A DNA stretch of 64,000 nucleotides from Dehalococcoidia bacterium (lineage in GTDB: Bacteria > Chloroflexota > Dehalococcoidia > SpSt-223): contig JANWZD010000002.1 of the NCBI GenBank assembly GCA_025054935.1, positions 236,145 through 300,144 on the forward strand. The letters are read 5' to 3'. Made by a program: the position numbers and the translations under genes. Position 1 is the stretch's first letter. The number at the start of each line of letters is the position of its first letter. Below, in pieces: positions 7,364 to 57,603 of the stretch. Under the pieces are notes generated by a model. That model made no database searches. It saw only the letters and a program-made list of their open reading frames with translations, and was not told where the DNA came from.

Positions 7364-8554
7364 ATGCCGCGCTCGGTTTCCCTCGGGTCAGCAGGCCGCC
7401 GCCGGATCCTGCTTGCTGATGATCACGCGAGTATTCGCCAGCTGGTCGCTGCCACGTTAGGCGGCGATCAGTTCGACCTTTCCTATGCCGCGAACGGCCG
7501 CGAGGCACTCGATCTTGCCCTGCGCGAGCACCCCGACCTCGTCCTGCTCGATATCAATATGCCCCTGCTCGACGGCTTCGAGGTCTGCCGTGCTTTGAAG
7601 CGCCGCTCTGCCACGGAAGATATCAAGGTCGTATTCCTCTCGGCGCTGGACAGCGAGGAAGACCGCCGCCGCGGGTTGGCAGCGGGCGCCGACGGCTATA
7701 TCGTCAAGCCGTTCAGCCCCCTCTTTCTGCTCAACTCGGTGCAGCAGCTGCTGGACGAGAAGCGGGCGGCTGAAGCGAGCGTTGACAGCGTCGCGCAGCG
7801 CGCTTTCACGCCGCTGGAATTTGTGACCGCAACGTTGGCACACGGGCCGAGCGCTGCTCCTCTCTCCTCCTCGCTCGAAGCCCGGGTCACAGAGCTGGAA
7901 TGGTCTCAGCAGCAATTGCTCATCTATGCCGACGAACTGAACAAGGCCTACCGCGAGCTGCAGACGACCTACTTCGCTACCTTGCAGGCGCTTGCAGCGG
8001 CCATCGACGCCCGCGACCCCTATACGTTCGGCCACTCTCGGCGCGTCTCGTACTACAGCGTTGAGATCGCCAAGCTGATGGGCCTCGACCCCAGCGCGAT
8101 TGAGGTCATTCGCCGCGCGGCGCTCCTGCATGACATTGGCAAGATCGCCGTCTCTGACGCGACCCTGCGCAAGCCCGGACCGCTCACAGCTGCTGAATGG
8201 GCAGAGATGAAGCGGCATCCCGAGGTCGGCGAGCAGCTGATTGCCGGTCTTGCCTTCCTGCGGGAGAGCGCCCCCCTTATTCGCTGTCACCATGAGTGGT
8301 GGGACGGCCGCGGCTATCCTGACGGCCTCCGCCACGAGGAGATCCCGCTTGGCGCCCGGATTTTGAGCGTCGCCGACGCCTTCGACGCGATGACCTCTAC
8401 CCGGCCCTACCGCCCGGCGCTCAGCGTCGAGGAGGCGCGCGCCGAAGCGCATCGCGGGCGCCATCGCCAGTTCGACAGCCGGGTTGTCGATGCCTTTGAG
8501 GACGGGATCGCCGCGATCGAGGCGATCCTGCGGCAGGAGCGCCCGTCTGCGTGA
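7364..8554 (+). CDS. Response regulator with HD-GYP domain (probable c-di-GMP phosphodiesterase)
   Basis: A 396-residue protein: receiver domain (residues about 15-135) with acidic pair ADD, phosphoacceptor Asp in VLLDINMP and Lys in VKPF; then a coiled linker; then an HD-GYP domain (about 205-390) with LLHDIGK and DGRGYPDG. The family hydrolyses cyclic di-GMP, with output controlled by phosphorylation of the receiver. No histidine kinase is adjacent. The ATG at 7364 has GGAGG five bases upstream; a second ATG at 7352 overlaps the VWA stop but lies too close to that SD. Its stop overlaps the GTG of selA (GTGA). Confidence 0.92.
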   Translation: MPRSVSLGSAGRRRILLADDHASIRQLVAATLGGDQFDLSYAANGREALDLALREHPDLVLLDINMPLLDGFEVCRALKRRSATEDIKVVFLSALDSEEDRRRGLAAGADGYIVKPFSPLFLLNSVQQLLDEKRAAEASVDSVAQRAFTPLEFVTATLAHGPSAAPLSSSLEARVTELEWSQQQLLIYADELNKAYRELQTTYFATLQALAAAIDARDPYTFGHSRRVSYYSVEIAKLMGLDPSAIEVIRRAALLHDIGKIAVSDATLRKPGPLTAAEWAEMKRHPEVGEQLIAGLAFLRESAPLIRCHHEWWDGRGYPDGLRHEEIPLGARILSVADAFDAMTSTRPYRPALSVEEARAEAHRGRHRQFDSRVVDAFEDGIAAIEAILRQERPSA

Positions 8555-9912
8555 GCGACCAGCGAGCCGAACTGCGAAAACTGCCGAGTGTCGATGCCCT
8601 GCTGCGCTCTCCTGATCTTGCGGGCGCGCGCGCCGCCCTCGGCGATCAGCTTCTGGCCGATCTCGCCCGGGACGCTCTCGCCGCCGCCCGCGACGCGATT
8701 CAGCGCGGAGCGCCGGCGCCGTCGGCTGAGCGCTTGCTCGAAACGATCCTTGCGCGCGCTGCGCCGCTGATTGATGGCCCCCTCATTCCCGTGATCAATG
8801 CGAGCGGGGTGATCCTCCATACCAACCTCGGCCGCGCCCCCCTTGCGGCAGATGCGGCCGCCGCCGCGCTCGCAGTGGCGCAGGGGTACAGCAATCTCGA
8901 ATTCGACCTCGCCGCCGGCACGCGCGGCGTGCGAGACCGCCATGTCGAGTGGCTGCTCTGTCAGGTCACGGGCGCGGAGGCGGCGCTCGCAGTCAACAAC
9001 AATGCTGCGGCGGTCCTGCTTGCGCTCTCCGCGCTTGCGGCCGGCCGCGAGGTGATCGTTTCGCGAGGGCAGGCAGTGGAGATCGGGGGAGGGTTCCGCA
9101 TTCCCGATGTGCTGCGGCAGAGCGGCGCGACACTGGTCGAGGTGGGGACAACCAACCGGACCTATCTCGACGACTATGCGGGCGCGATCACGGCCGAGAC
9201 GGCGGCGCTCCTGCGGGTGCACCGCAGCAATTTTGCCCTCATCGGCTTTATTCATGAGGTGGACGTCCGAGAGCTCGCCGCCCTCGCCGAGCGGCATGGG
9301 CTATGCCTGATCGACGACCTCGGCAGCGGCTGCCTGATCGACACGCGGCGGTACGGCCTTGCCGCTGAGCCGACCGTCCAGGAGAGTGTGGCGGCTGGCG
9401 CCGGGATCGTCTGCTTTTCCGGGGACAAGCTGCTCGGCGGGCCGCAGGCGGGGCTGATCGTCGGCCGGAAGGTCTGGGTCGAGCGGCTGCGGCGTCATCC
9501 CCTTGCCCGGGCGGTGCGCATCGACAAGATCACGCTCGCCGCACTCCTCGCGACCCTGCGCCACTATGTGCGCGGCGATGCGGAGGAGACGATCCCGGTG
9601 TGGCAAATGATCGCGGCTCCTCTCGAGACGCTCACTGAGCGGGCGCAGCGCCTCGCTGCCGCACTAGGGGGAAGCGTTGTGCCCGGGCGCTCGGCCGTGG
9701 GCGGCGGCAGCTTGCCGGGCCAGACGCTCGAAACACGGCTGGTCGCGCTGCCCGACCCTGACCCGCACGCGCTCGCAGCGCGGCTGCGCGCCGGCCGCCC
9801 CCCGGTCATCGGGCGCATCGAGGACGACCGTCTTCTCCTCGATCTTCGGACGGTGCTCAGTGCGCAAGAGCCCGCCCTGATTGCTGCAGTCCGCGCAGCG
9901 CGTCAGTCGTAG
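8551..9912 (+). CDS. selA: L-seryl-tRNA(Sec) selenium transferase
   Basis: PLP enzyme that converts Ser-tRNA(Sec) to selenocysteinyl-tRNA(Sec) using selenophosphate. The protein has 453 residues, full length for bacterial SelA. Diagnostic stretches: PVINASGVILHTNLGRAPL, AVNNNAAAVLL, SRGQAVEIGGGFRIP, VGTTNRTY, LIDDLGSGCL, and the PLP-lysine motif FSGDKLLGGPQAG with Lys about 293. The GTG start overlaps the HD-GYP stop. selB, selD and tRNA(Sec) are not in the window. Its presence is functional support for reading the TGA at 17575 as selenocysteine. The 3' end overlaps convergent ftsK by 10 bases. Confidence 0.95.
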   Translation: MSDQRAELRKLPSVDALLRSPDLAGARAALGDQLLADLARDALAAARDAIQRGAPAPSAERLLETILARAAPLIDGPLIPVINASGVILHTNLGRAPLAADAAAAALAVAQGYSNLEFDLAAGTRGVRDRHVEWLLCQVTGAEAALAVNNNAAAVLLALSALAAGREVIVSRGQAVEIGGGFRIPDVLRQSGATLVEVGTTNRTYLDDYAGAITAETAALLRVHRSNFALIGFIHEVDVRELAALAERHGLCLIDDLGSGCLIDTRRYGLAAEPTVQESVAAGAGIVCFSGDKLLGGPQAGLIVGRKVWVERLRRHPLARAVRIDKITLAALLATLRHYVRGDAEETIPVWQMIAAPLETLTERAQRLAAALGGSVVPGRSAVGGGSLPGQTLETRLVALPDPDPHALAARLRAGRPPVIGRIEDDRLLLDLRTVLSAQEPALIAAVRAARQS

Positions 9913-15248: not shown

Positions 15249-16019
15249 CTACCGGATCAGCCGCCGCCGCATCAGCACTATCGCAATGATGCTGAAACTG
15301 ACAGCGGCAACGCCCAAGAAGGCGAGGTCGATGACCGCCTCCCCGCCGAGGCTCCCGCGGTTGAGCGAGCGGGAGAGGTTGGTCACATGCGTCATCGGGA
15401 TGAACCAAGCGAGGATGCGCACCCAGTCGGGAAGGCGATCGAGGGGGAAGAAAACACCGCCGAAGAACAAGCTGGGCGTGAAGTAGAGGCTGAAAAAGTA
15501 GTTAAAGGCGTTGACCGACGGCGCGACCGCAGTAAAGCACAGCCCGATGGCGGCGAAAACAGCGCCTCCGAGGAACGCTACTGGGATCATGCCGAGCGCT
15601 GCCGGCGATTGGGCGAGCCCGAACGCGCCGACGGCGATCAGGAGGGCAGTCGCCGAGATCACGCCTCGCGTCGCTCCCCAGAGGATCTCGCCGACGACAA
15701 TATCGTCGACAGAGAGCGGCGTCGCGAGGATGGCGTCGAACGTTTTCTGGGAGTCGAGCCGGAAGAAGGAGCCGAACGTCGTCTCAAACGTTGCGCCGAA
15801 GAACGCCGACTGGGCGATCAGGCCGGGAGCGAGAAAGACGATGTACTCTTCGCCTCCAAGGGCCACATACGCGCCCATGCCGAAGCCGAAGGCGAGGAGG
15901 GTGATGAACGCCTCGAGGAAGGGGGGCCAGCTTTCGGTGCGCCAGAGGCGGAGAAAGACGTCCCGGTTGCGCTGCCAGACACGCACGGCGCTGAGGGAGA
16001 GATCGAATTTGGAGATCAT
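15249..16019 (-). CDS. ABC-2 type transporter permease (NodJ/DrrB-like)
   Basis: A 256-residue inner-membrane protein with about six hydrophobic segments. Residues in the TTFGSFFRLDSQKTFDAILATPLSVDDIVVGEILWGATRG region and the SLFFGGVFFPLDRLP loop are typical of the NodJ/ABC-2 exporter family. With the ATPase upstream (4-bp ATGA overlap) it forms a complete two-gene exporter. Such pairs export lipo-oligosaccharides, drugs or glycolipids; the cargo cannot be told. Confidence 0.87.
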   Translation of the reverse strand: MISKFDLSLSAVRVWQRNRDVFLRLWRTESWPPFLEAFITLLAFGFGMGAYVALGGEEYIVFLAPGLIAQSAFFGATFETTFGSFFRLDSQKTFDAILATPLSVDDIVVGEILWGATRGVISATALLIAVGAFGLAQSPAALGMIPVAFLGGAVFAAIGLCFTAVAPSVNAFNYFFSLYFTPSLFFGGVFFPLDRLPDWVRILAWFIPMTHVTNLSRSLNRGSLGGEAVIDLAFLGVAAVSFSIIAIVLMRRRLIR

Positions 16020-16927
16020 TCCTGCAAGCTCCGTCCTGCCAGCCGCAGAAAGACATCTTCAAGCGTCGCCGGCCGGCGGATTGCTTCCCGAACTGTGCCG
16101 CGAGGGTGCGGGAAGGGACCGTCCCGCTCGAAGACGTAGACAGCGTCGTCGGTCGCCTCATAGTCGGCTCCCCAGCCGGCGAGCTCCTCGAGAAGCGGGG
16201 GCTGCTCCTCGCGGTCGATCCGAAGCTCGAGAACGCTCTGGCCGACGTAGGTCTCGACGAGCGCGGTTGGTGTCCCTTCAGCGAGGATCGCGCCGCGATC
16301 CATGATGATCACGCGGTCAGCCAGCCGCGCCGCCTCCTCCATATAGTGCGTGGTCAGGATCATTGTCGCGCCGCTCTCCTTCAGTTGGCGGAGCTTTGTC
16401 CAGACGAGGTGGCGTGCCTGGGGGTCAAGCCCGGTCGTCGGCTCATCGAGGAGCAGCAGCCGGGGACGGTTGATCAGGGCGCGCGCGATCGTGAGGCGGC
16501 GCTGCATCCCGCCGGAGAGAGTTGCGACCGAGGCGTTCGCTTTTTCCGTCAACTGGAAAAGCGCGAGCGCCTCGTCCGCGCGCTGCTCCGCCACCTTTTT
16601 CGGGAGGTTGTAGTAGCGGGCGTAGGCAAGCAGGTTCTGGCGAACGGAAAGGTCGGGGTCGAGGTTGCTCTCCTGCGGCACGACCCCGATCCGCGACTTC
16701 ACGTGGCGCGGGTGCGTCCGGACATCAAACCCGTCGACGATCAGTTCTCCCGCCGTGACCGGCGACGCGCAGGCGATCATCCGGATCGTGCTCGACTTGC
16801 CGGCGCCGTTGGGACCAAGAAACGCAACACACGCTCCCTCGTACACCGTGAAGTCGATGCCGTTGACGGCGATGAAGTCGCCAAACTGCTTGGTCAGGCG
16901 CCGCGCAATCACCATCGGCTTGCCCAT
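16016..16927 (-). CDS. ABC transporter ATP-binding protein (NodI/DrrA-like)
   Basis: A 303-residue ATPase partner of the permease downstream. Walker A GPNGAGKSST, Q-loop GVVPQESNLDPDLSV, signature LSGGMQRR, Walker B LLLLDEPTTGLDP and the H-loop TTHYMEEA are all intact. The C-terminal 80 residues form the regulatory tail of DrrA/NodI proteins. I chose the ATG at 16927: the frame extends to 17110, but that part is Arg-rich, and a TATAGT -10 box lies at 16949-16954, leaving a short leader. An alternative ATG is at 16915. Confidence 0.9.
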   Translation of the reverse strand: MGKPMVIARRLTKQFGDFIAVNGIDFTVYEGACVAFLGPNGAGKSSTIRMIACASPVTAGELIVDGFDVRTHPRHVKSRIGVVPQESNLDPDLSVRQNLLAYARYYNLPKKVAEQRADEALALFQLTEKANASVATLSGGMQRRLTIARALINRPRLLLLDEPTTGLDPQARHLVWTKLRQLKESGATMILTTHYMEEAARLADRVIIMDRGAILAEGTPTALVETYVGQSVLELRIDREEQPPLLEELAGWGADYEATDDAVYVFERDGPFPHPRGTVREAIRRPATLEDVFLRLAGRSLQE

Positions 16928-16948
16928 GGAAACGGAGAGCACGCTCTG

Positions 16949-16954
16949 ACTATA
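16949..16954 (-). promoter_or_regulatory. -10 box for the NodI/NodJ-like exporter
   Basis: TATAGT on the minus strand, 22 bases before the ATG at 16927. No recognisable -35. Confidence 0.35.
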
Positions 16955-17097
16955 GCTGACCGCGGCGCGGGCGACCGGCAGCGTTCGCCTCGGTCGGCGG
17001 CGCTTCTGGCCGGAGAGACGGCGTGGAGAGCGCCTCCTGGGCGCAGCCCATCGGCTCCGCAGCGGAGGCTGCGGCCCGGCGCTGTTCGGCGAGAGGC

Positions 17098-17103
17098 TAT
17101 ACT
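17098..17103 (+). promoter_or_regulatory. -10 box for the disulfide oxidoreductase gene
   Basis: TATACT preceded by GC, 28 bases before the ATG at 17131. No clear -35. Confidence 0.45.
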
Positions 17104-17130
17104 TGGCCAAGAAGTGGAATGGAGACCTTA

Positions 17131-17862
17131 ATGATTTCAGACCGTGATCAGGCGTTCATTCGTGAACGGTTTGCGAACGAACTGGTCGACCCCGTGCAGA
17201 TCGACCTGTTCATTCGACCGGAGACCGGCCTGTATATTCCCGGGCGGCAGCCGACGACGTCGCGCGAAACGCGTCAGCTCCTCGAAGAAGTGGCCGCCCT
17301 GTCAGATAAGATCACCCTCAACGTGATCGACGTCACGACCGACCCTGCTGCAGCTGCTGCCGCCGACGTGACCGGCGTGCCCGCAATTATCATTCGTGGC
17401 CCGGCCGACGGTCGCGTGCGGATGCTCGGTCTTCCTGCCGGCTACGAATTTGCCACCCTCCTTGAGACCATCATCACGGTCTCATCGGGCAAGACCGGCA
17501 TCGACGAGAAGGTGATTGAGATCCTCGACGAGATTGCAGACCCAGTCGATATTCAGGTCTTTGTCACCCCGACCTGACCGCACTGCCCGCGCACAGCGTC
17601 GTTGGCGCTGAAACTGGCGGCTTCCTCGTCGAAGGTCCGAGCGAGCGTGATCGAGGCAAACGAGTTTCCTGACCTTTCGCGCAAATACCGCGTTTCGGCC
17701 GTGCCGCAGACGGTCTTCACCTCGTCTGCCTCACCTGAGCCGCGCATTCTGATCGGCGGCGGCCCGCCGGAGCGGTTCCTCGGCGAACTGTTTGTCGCTG
17801 CGCGCGTCCCCCCGGAAAAGCTGGCGGTCGATGAGACCCCGTCTGCAGAGGGGCCGGCCTAA
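17131..17862 (+). CDS. Selenocysteine-containing protein disulfide oxidoreductase (TGA at 17575 read as Sec)
   Basis: Predicted 243-residue protein with two tandem thioredoxin folds, like the PDO/glutaredoxin-like family that makes, breaks or swaps disulfides. The first fold (residues 1-115) has no CxxC and keeps a TGVPAIII cis-Pro strand. The second has FVTPT, then TGA as codon 149, then PHCPRTASLALKLA, and later RVSAVPQTVF with the cis-Pro. Family members read T-C-P-x-C here, so the TGA replaces exactly the attacking cysteine. Reading stays open for 94 codons after the TGA with continued homology. A SECIS-like hairpin follows, and selA is in the window. The ATG at 17131 has TGGAG six bases upstream; an in-frame ATG at 17119 is possible. 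Alternatives are a TGC-to-TGA sequence error or a recent nonsense mutation. Confidence 0.85.
17575..17577 (+). other. In-frame TGA, predicted selenocysteine codon (Sec149)
   Basis: The codons around it read Thr-Pro-Thr-TGA-Pro-His-Cys-Pro. A gene caller would stop here and start a second fragment at the TTG at 17602, splitting one thioredoxin fold inside its active-site loop. Confidence 0.85.
17583..17620 (+). promoter_or_regulatory. SECIS-like hairpin after the Sec codon
   Basis: Upper stem of 7 bp: 17594-17600 (CAGCGTC) with 17604-17610 (GGCGCTG), one G-U pair, closing a GTT loop at 17601-17603. Lower stem of 5 bp: 17583-17587 (CTGCC) with 17616-17620 (GGCGG), separated by an asymmetric internal loop. 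The loop begins 23 nt after the TGA and has G first. Bacterial SECIS elements bind SelB just downstream of the UGA, with the loop usually about 16-37 nt away and a G in its first two bases (general knowledge). No energy calculation was run. Confidence 0.7.
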
Positions 17863-17932
17863 GCGGTGAGGAGGAGAGCGCTCGCTCCTAGTGCGCGCTC
17901 GGCCGCCGCGCATTCGGAGCGGAGCGCCGGGA

Positions 17933-18211
17933 TTAGGCGATAATCCGAAAGTTTTGGAAGTCGCCGCGATACGGCTCCCAAAGCACCTGGACGTCTTCGA
18001 CGCGGGCAGCGGGCGGCCCGTGCTTGCACCACTCGATCATGCGGAGGACAGCGGCCCGGTCTCCCTCGAAAATCGCCTCGACCCGCCCGTCGGGGATGTT
18101 CCGCACCATCCCCGTTACTCCTGCTTTGATCGCTTCCTGCCGGGTCGACTCCCGGAACATCACCCCTTGGACCCGGCCGGAGATGAGAACGTAGGCGCGG
18201 GCTGGGCTCAT
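17933..18211 (-). CDS. acyP: Acylphosphatase
   Basis: A small 92-residue enzyme that hydrolyses acyl phosphates. The signature GRVQGVMFRESTRQEA carries the catalytic Arg, and the second signature GMVRNIPDGRVEAIFEGD carries the Asn. Length matches the family. The ATG at 18211 overlaps the TGA of the metalloprotease upstream (TGATG); a GTG three bases earlier is also possible. It is likely cotranscribed with that gene. Confidence 0.93.
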   Translation of the reverse strand: MSPARAYVLISGRVQGVMFRESTRQEAIKAGVTGMVRNIPDGRVEAIFEGDRAAVLRMIEWCKHGPPAARVEDVQVLWEPYRGDFQNFRIIA

Positions 18212-18591
18212 CACTCCAACCCATAGCGGCGGAGGTCGTCGTCGGTCAGGCCAAAGTGATGCGCAAGCTCGTGGATCACCGTCGTCTGCACCTCAGCGCG
18301 AATCGCCCAGTCGGAGGCGCACGCCGCTTCGAGAGGCCCTTGATAGATGGTGATTTTGTCCGGCACGGTCAGCCCGTAGTCGCTTGTTCGGCATGTCAGC
18401 GGCGTCCCTTGGTAAAGGCCGAAGAGCATGTCGTCCGGACCGAGGCCCGCGGCCTCGAGGTCTTCCGGGCTCGGCCAATCCTCGATGGTGATCGCGACGT
18501 TGTTGAGACGCTCGCGGATTGTCGGCGGGAGTTCGCGCACCGCCCGCGAGACGAGCCGCTCGAACCGGCGGCGAGACATCTTCCGGGGCAT
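18211..18591 (-). CDS. Small metallopeptidase-family protein (minimal zincin, DUF1025 type)
   Basis: A 126-residue protein with the zinc motif in TTVIHELAHHFGLTDDDL (HExxH plus downstream Asp) near the C terminus, and FERLVSRAVRELP at the N terminus, the hallmark of the minimal-zincin family. Peptidase activity is inferred; many members are uncharacterised. The frame runs back to 18771, but those residues are shadow of the neighbour. The ATG at 18591 lies exactly six bases after a TATACT box with no SD, so the mRNA is probably leaderless. Translationally coupled to acyP. Confidence 0.85.
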   Translation of the reverse strand: MPRKMSRRRFERLVSRAVRELPPTIRERLNNVAITIEDWPSPEDLEAAGLGPDDMLFGLYQGTPLTCRTSDYGLTVPDKITIYQGPLEAACASDWAIRAEVQTTVIHELAHHFGLTDDDLRRYGLE

Positions 18592-56640: not shown

Positions 56641-56706
56641 CCTAGCACCGGCACGGTACCGGTGTCCGGACCGCAGCCTGCGTGCGAATCCTTCCAAGGA
56701 GGCCGC

Positions 56707-57603
56707 TTGGATCGGCGACGACCGAGACGGCGACAATGGCCGACCGTCGCTTTTGTCGGCGCAGGCCGCACTGCTCACGCCCTCGCCCATGCGCTTGCGG
56801 CGGCTGGAGTGCCTATCGTCTCGGTCTCCAGCCGCTCGACCTCCTCCGCAGAAGCGCTCGCTCGCCAGCTGGCCGGGTGTGCTGCTGGGCCGCCCACCCA
56901 AGCGGAGCTGGTGCTGCTGACTGTCCCCGACGATGCTCTCGACGCTGTTGCGGCGCAGATCGCGTGGCGGCCGGGGCAGTTCGTTGTCCACTGCGCGGGT
57001 GCCTTCGGGCGCGATATTCTCGCTCCCGCGACCCGCGCCGGCGCGATTGCCGGGGTCTGGCATCCCCTCCAGAGCCTGGCGCGGCCTGGGGTCTCCCTCC
57101 GCGGCGCGCGGTTTGCGATCGATGCCCCGCCTCCGCTCGAAAGCCGGCTGATCGCGCTGACGGAAGCGGTGGGCGGCGTGCCGCTCGCCATTCCCTCGGA
57201 GGGGCGAGCGCTCTATCACCTTGGCGCCACGATCGTCTCGAATTACGCGGTAGCGTTGGTTGCGCTTGCGGCCGACCTGTGGACGGTCCTCGGCATCAGA
57301 CGGTCAGAGGCAGTTGCTGCCTTGGCGCCGCTGCTTGCCGGTACGGCGGCCAACCTCGCGGAGATGGGCGTGCCGGCCGCCCTGACCGGTCCGGTCGCCC
57401 GCGGCGACCTTGCGACGGTTGAGCGTCACCTTGCGGCCTTGGAGCGCCACCGCCCGGATCTGCTCACGCTGTACCGCCGGCTCGGCCTTGCCGCGCTCGA
57501 GTTGGCGATCGAGCGCGGTCTTGCAGACGATCGGGCGGCAGCACTCAAAGCGCGCCTCGAGGACGACACGCTCGCGACTACCGCGGTCGGAAGAGGAGGG
57601 TGA
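56707..57603 (+). CDS. Rossmann-fold and DUF2520 domain protein
   Basis: 298-residue NADP-binding protein. Rossmann start VAFVGAGRTAHALAHALAAAG, VLLTVPDDALDAVAAQI, then the DUF2520 part with CAGAFGRDILAPA, GVWHPLQSLA and ALYHLGATIVSNYAVAL. Such genes often sit beside panB/panC, and a ketopantoate reductase-like role has been suggested for relatives; not proven here. TTG start at 56707 chosen because AAGGAGG lies four to five bases upstream. The frame extends back to 56476 without support. It ends just before panB. Confidence 0.8.
   Translation: MDRRRPRRRQWPTVAFVGAGRTAHALAHALAAAGVPIVSVSSRSTSSAEALARQLAGCAAGPPTQAELVLLTVPDDALDAVAAQIAWRPGQFVVHCAGAFGRDILAPATRAGAIAGVWHPLQSLARPGVSLRGARFAIDAPPPLESRLIALTEAVGGVPLAIPSEGRALYHLGATIVSNYAVALVALAADLWTVLGIRRSEAVAALAPLLAGTAANLAEMGVPAALTGPVARGDLATVERHLAALERHRPDLLTLYRRLGLAALELAIERGLADDRAAALKARLEDDTLATTAVGRGG

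Follow-up and report, generated by a model that had tools for sequence, protein, structure and literature searches.

A selenocysteine-containing protein disulfide oxidoreductase predicted from an in-frame TGA in a Dehalococcoidia genome

Introduction

Protein disulfide oxidoreductases (PDOs) of archaea carry a second CxxC, located in their N-terminal domain. The N-terminal domain of AhpF consists of two halves, one of which is active and the other inactive. Solved structures are available for both types, including the Pyrococcus PDO (1a8l, 1j08), its Aquifex counterpart (2ayt) and AhpF (PDB 1zyn, 1hyu). Members of TIGR02187 with a UxxC motif are listed among the prokaryotic selenoprotein families under the name "homolog of AhpF N-terminal domain (Grx-like domain protein)", with ABB15282.1 as an example (PMC13188914, table), and a 2006 paper (PMC1794560) already uses this family name.

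Here, we describe a gene from a Dehalococcoidia bacterium in which the corresponding active site is interrupted by an in-frame TGA. The stretch of DNA that we analysed, referred to below as the window, is 64,000 nucleotides long. Because TIGR02187 proteins with UxxC have already been catalogued, the finding is a further member of a known selenoprotein family: the enzyme family is already among the known bacterial selenoproteins, and the Chloroflexota genus considered here is an addition to it.

Results and discussion

A two-domain PDO interrupted by a single TGA

The predicted selenoprotein PDO gene occupies positions 17131-17862 (+ strand) and would encode 243 amino acids with selenocysteine (Sec) at residue 149. 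A single TGA interrupts the open reading frame, at 17575-17577 (+, codon 149), and is followed by 94 sense codons and a TAA at 17860-17862. By eye, a Shine-Dalgarno-like GGAG at 17121-17124 (+), 6 nt before the ATG, is the probable ribosome binding site. The earlier note had pointed to a frame, FVTPT-TGA-PHCPRTASLALKLA, that stays open for 94 codons past the TGA and contains the thioredoxin-fold cis-Pro motif SAVPQTVF, and we find frame and motifs as quoted. Apart from U149 and the presumptive resolving Cys152 (TGC, 17584-17586, +; site T-U-P-H-C), the joined protein contains no Cys or Sec at all.

The joined protein matches TIGR02187 (PDO_seleno_TRX) with 206.9 bits, in one stretch (residues 4-219) that spans the TGA, where membership of the family is defined as a score above the curated cut-off of 185 bits across the whole protein. 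Its N-terminal thioredoxin-fold domain (17131-17544, +, border approximate) is matched by DUF7088 over residues 16-87 and by KaiB over residues 34-88, and its C-terminal thioredoxin-fold domain (17545-17790, +, border approximate) by Pfam Thioredoxin_3 over residues 140-195. The latter domain holds both the UxxC (U149-P-H-C152) and the cis-Pro (SAVPQ) expected of the fold.

Likeness to the Pyrococcus furiosus-type PDO and to the Aquifex protein is near full-length (1a8l: E 7.7e-31, residues 1-221; 2ayt: residues 10-222) and includes the motif F-V-T-P-T-C/U-P-x-C-P. However, both sites are made up of Cys in 1a8l and 1j08, whereas the protein described here lacks the N-terminal site and has Sec in the C-terminal one. 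The tandem thioredoxin-fold arrangement is also shared with the N-terminal domain of AhpF, which is matched over residues 43-196 and which, like our protein, has one active and one inactive half; AhpF differs in being fused to its own flavin reductase, while the protein here is free-standing and carries Sec. Compared with the TIGR02187 selenoprotein family as a whole, the protein is alike in its C-terminal U-x-x-C and two-domain length, in addition to passing the curated cut-off, but differs in having P-T-T-S instead of the N-terminal C-x-x-C in this genus; several other members have lost the motif too.

Relatives carry either Sec or Cys opposite the TGA

To place the TGA in context, related genomes and GTDB species genomes were searched for relatives, yielding over 80 loci. 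The earlier note expected Cys homologues opposite the TGA and this expectation was borne out: codon 149 aligns to TGA in 43 and to TGC or TGT in 29 relatives that are distinct by their downstream DNA, with the surrounding residues reading V-F-V-T-P-T-[U/C]-P-x-C-P or a near variant. Neither Cys nor Sec is found at this column only in five remote matches (L035, L036, L037, L039, L040), where the motif is absent; three further remote matches do not align across the TGA column. Closer to home, two sister genomes from the same genus, at 81% and 71% identity, keep both the TGA and the whole frame; the public metagenome-assembled genome Dehalococcoidia bacterium KatS3mg060 is one of the two.

Sec and Cys forms are interleaved in a tree of 73 proteins, with 11 changes by parsimony, at least three of which are forced by strongly supported branches, and with a Cys form of Thermomicrobium nested within a Sec clade. 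Such interleaving is a classic sign of Sec/Cys exchange. As a separate observation, the genome of one relative (G023) encodes both a Sec form (L042) and a divergent Cys form (L028), the latter with CPYS at the site so that the resolving Cys is lost.

Loss of the N-terminal CxxC

The protein has PTTS where close relatives have C-x-T-C, so that the archaeal-type N-terminal CxxC is absent; this second CxxC is not universal in TIGR02187. Since the N-terminal C-x-x-C has been lost in the genus, U149/C152 would be the only redox pair. A simple motif scan, in which kinship is ignored, finds the N-terminal CxxC kept in 24 of 44 Sec forms versus 25 of 29 Cys forms; loss is thus commoner in Sec forms (20/44 versus 4/29, again ignoring kinship). 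One might conjecture that the PDO of this genus is a single-site selenoenzyme in which the C-terminal Sec went along with the loss of the N-terminal CxxC, although we consider this somewhat doubtful. If true, it would mean a shift from a two-site oxidase/isomerase to a dedicated selenium-dependent reductase, and the single-site variant raises a modest but testable question as to the role of the N-terminal CxxC.

Sequence downstream of the TGA evolves as protein

Pairwise comparison of the three sister genes after the TGA reveals 8/5/32 (over 75 codons), 13/10/33 and 18/8/36 differences at codon positions 1/2/3, corresponding to dN of 0.08-0.21, dS of 0.80-0.91 and dN/dS of about 0.1-0.23. With differences mostly at third positions and dN low, the downstream part has evidently been maintained as protein, that is, it is under purifying selection.

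A conserved hairpin follows the TGA

A candidate bacterial SECIS hairpin is located at 17594-17610 (+), with a 7-bp stem (CAGCGUC/GGCGCUG) and an apical loop, GUU, at 17601-17603, which starts 23 nt after the TGA. The hairpin folds with -9.7 kcal/mol (z -3.0) and agrees with each of the four rules in the bacterial SECIS model (PMC13188914): a 3-nt loop starting with GU, the 7-bp stem, the 23-nt spacing and the folding energy. Note, however, that when a wider, 51-nt fold including the SECIS region is compared to dinucleotide shuffles, there is no extra stability, and that an alternative pairing, at 17588-17616, competes with the hairpin. Because this comparison is uninformative we turned to codon-preserving and comparative tests, and the case for a SECIS element consequently rests on comparative evidence. 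Scanning the window with Rfam at gathering thresholds likewise returns no SECIS match, which we do not count against the element, given how variable SECIS elements are among bacteria (PMC13188914).

Comparative evidence comes from several directions. Codons 155-160, which encode the hairpin, are identical in all three sister genes (6/6), compared to 37 of 135 other codons conserved at the amino-acid level; no longer run of invariant codons occurs in the compared stretch. The hairpin recurs in 23 further Sec relatives, shifted by one base and with loop GGN or GUC, and its five upper base pairs are paired in 23/23. In one of these upper-stem pairs both partners are third codon positions; it is G-C in 15, G-U in one and C-G in seven of the 23, which is a compensatory exchange. 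The two third-position pairs form in just 16 and 15 of 29 Cys relatives. Similarly, when SECIS-like hairpins are scored against codon-preserving shuffles, the mean z is -0.96 in Sec forms (n=43) but +0.11 in Cys forms (n=29), so that the hairpin is favoured in Sec forms and not in Cys forms.

Sec loci outside the Chloroflexota (L061, L069, L093 and others, from Acidobacteria, Dormibacterota, Rokubacteria and other groups) tend to have their hairpin elsewhere, its loop lying about 17 nt past the TGA. This suggests that different lineages within this one gene family have rebuilt the SECIS element.

The genome encodes the Sec decoding machinery

That SelA is encoded within the same window had been claimed before and is correct: selA, for L-seryl-tRNA(Sec) selenium transferase, lies at 8551-9912 (+; TIGR00474, 559 bits). 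The earlier note further asked for selB, selD and tRNA-Sec in the rest of the genome, and family searches recover all of them (SelB 329 bits; SelD 397 bits; tRNA-Sec 68 bits, with anticodon TCA). SelD of this genome is itself a second selenoprotein gene (L011, G000:C15:53052-53978, minus strand), with an in-frame TGA in S-H-G-A-G-U-A-C-K (SHGAG-TGA-ACK).

More broadly, SelA and/or SelB score above cut-off in 11 of 11 relatives from the class that have the TGA form, the six that lack one of the two being 63-85% complete genomes. Of three relatives that only have a Cys form, two are without both SelA and SelB. Across the named genomes, SelA presence does not cleanly split Sec from Cys forms and several Cys-form genomes have SelA, where it presumably serves other selenoproteins.

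Alternative readings of the TGA

Can the TGA be explained without invoking Sec? It is only one base away from the TGC of Cys relatives, and might therefore reflect a sequencing or assembly error or else a fresh nonsense mutation that has turned the gene into a pseudogene. However, the same TGA is present in two sister genomes that were assembled independently, which argues against sequencing error, and in some 40 other relatives besides. Given, in addition, purifying selection past the TGA and specific conservation of the SECIS hairpin, an error or pseudogene is scarcely credible. Alternatively, the TGA could be what it usually is in this genome, a true stop (it ends 11 of the 15 window ORFs that we checked), yielding a 148-residue N-terminal protein and leaving the remainder as a separate or dead piece. 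Yet such a protein would have lost its sole redox motif, the downstream part is kept as protein, and Cys forms run through this point uninterrupted, making termination at codon 149 very improbable.

For reassignment of TGA, for example to Trp, or readthrough by another tRNA we find no supporting evidence, and we regard it as hardly conceivable: where relatives keep the motif the aligned residue is Cys and never Trp, a tRNA-Sec with anticodon TCA is present along with the full Sec system, and TGA ends most of the genes checked. We therefore reject sequencing error, pseudogenization, a true stop and codon reassignment on the basis of the TGA in sister genomes, selection, the Cys column and the Sec machinery.

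A model for decoding and catalysis

The explanation that we favour, and hold to be very nearly certain, is that the gene encodes a two-domain, glutaredoxin-like PDO (TIGR02187) in which UGA149 would be read as Sec by way of SelB, Sec-tRNA(Sec) and the SECIS element, providing a U-x-x-C site for disulfide exchange. The earlier proposal that the TGA encodes Sec and so creates a U-x-x-C site is upheld by the Cys/Sec column, the complete Sec machinery, the TGA in sister genomes and the conserved hairpin; insofar as sequence can settle such a question, decoding as Sec appears settled. How the enzyme cycles, what reduces it and which clients it serves we infer from the family. According to the model, SelB and Sec-tRNA(Sec) would decode UGA149 under the direction of the mRNA hairpin 23 nt downstream. 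Sec149 would then attack a disulfide of a client protein, the resulting mixed selenenylsulfide would be resolved by Cys152, and the U149/C152 pair would be recharged, most likely by a flavoenzyme of the thioredoxin-reductase type.

A thioredoxin reductase (G000:C4:39634-40527, 388 bits) is encoded elsewhere in the same genome. Our search for conserved neighbours mostly returned antisense and chance clusters, with one useful exception, a thioredoxin reductase cluster: in eight loci, every one of them a Cys form, a gene of this cluster lies close to the PDO. The cluster representative, in L092, is situated just upstream of a Cys-form PDO and best matches thioredoxin-disulfide reductase, albeit just under the model cut-off. 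Neither a reductase nor a client gene was found adjoining the PDO in the genome described here, and the partner is therefore a guess.

What looks like a split gene is, on the reading that we favour, one intact selenoenzyme. The case illustrates how firmly such a conclusion can be drawn from genomic data alone, with the decoding machinery, the exchange of Cys and Sec at one column and a SECIS element of invariant codons all in agreement. It had also been claimed that standard gene callers would lose the active site. The claim is justified for callers that take no account of Sec, but NCBI's own family model is named PDO_seleno_TRX; Sec-aware annotation of this genome and its sisters would restore the active site.

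Genomic surroundings

The gene stands alone, with a divergent ABC transporter pair (15249-17110, minus strand) to one side and genes on the opposite strand to the other. Just downstream, we noticed by eye an acylphosphatase-like gene at about 17932-18230 (minus strand), ending in ...QNFRIIA, where the ORF list, at 100 amino acids, has only overlapping other frames. Further along the window, at 56650-56734 (+), there is a match of 40.4 bits to the pan motif RNA (RF01749), which putatively regulates pantothenate genes in cis.
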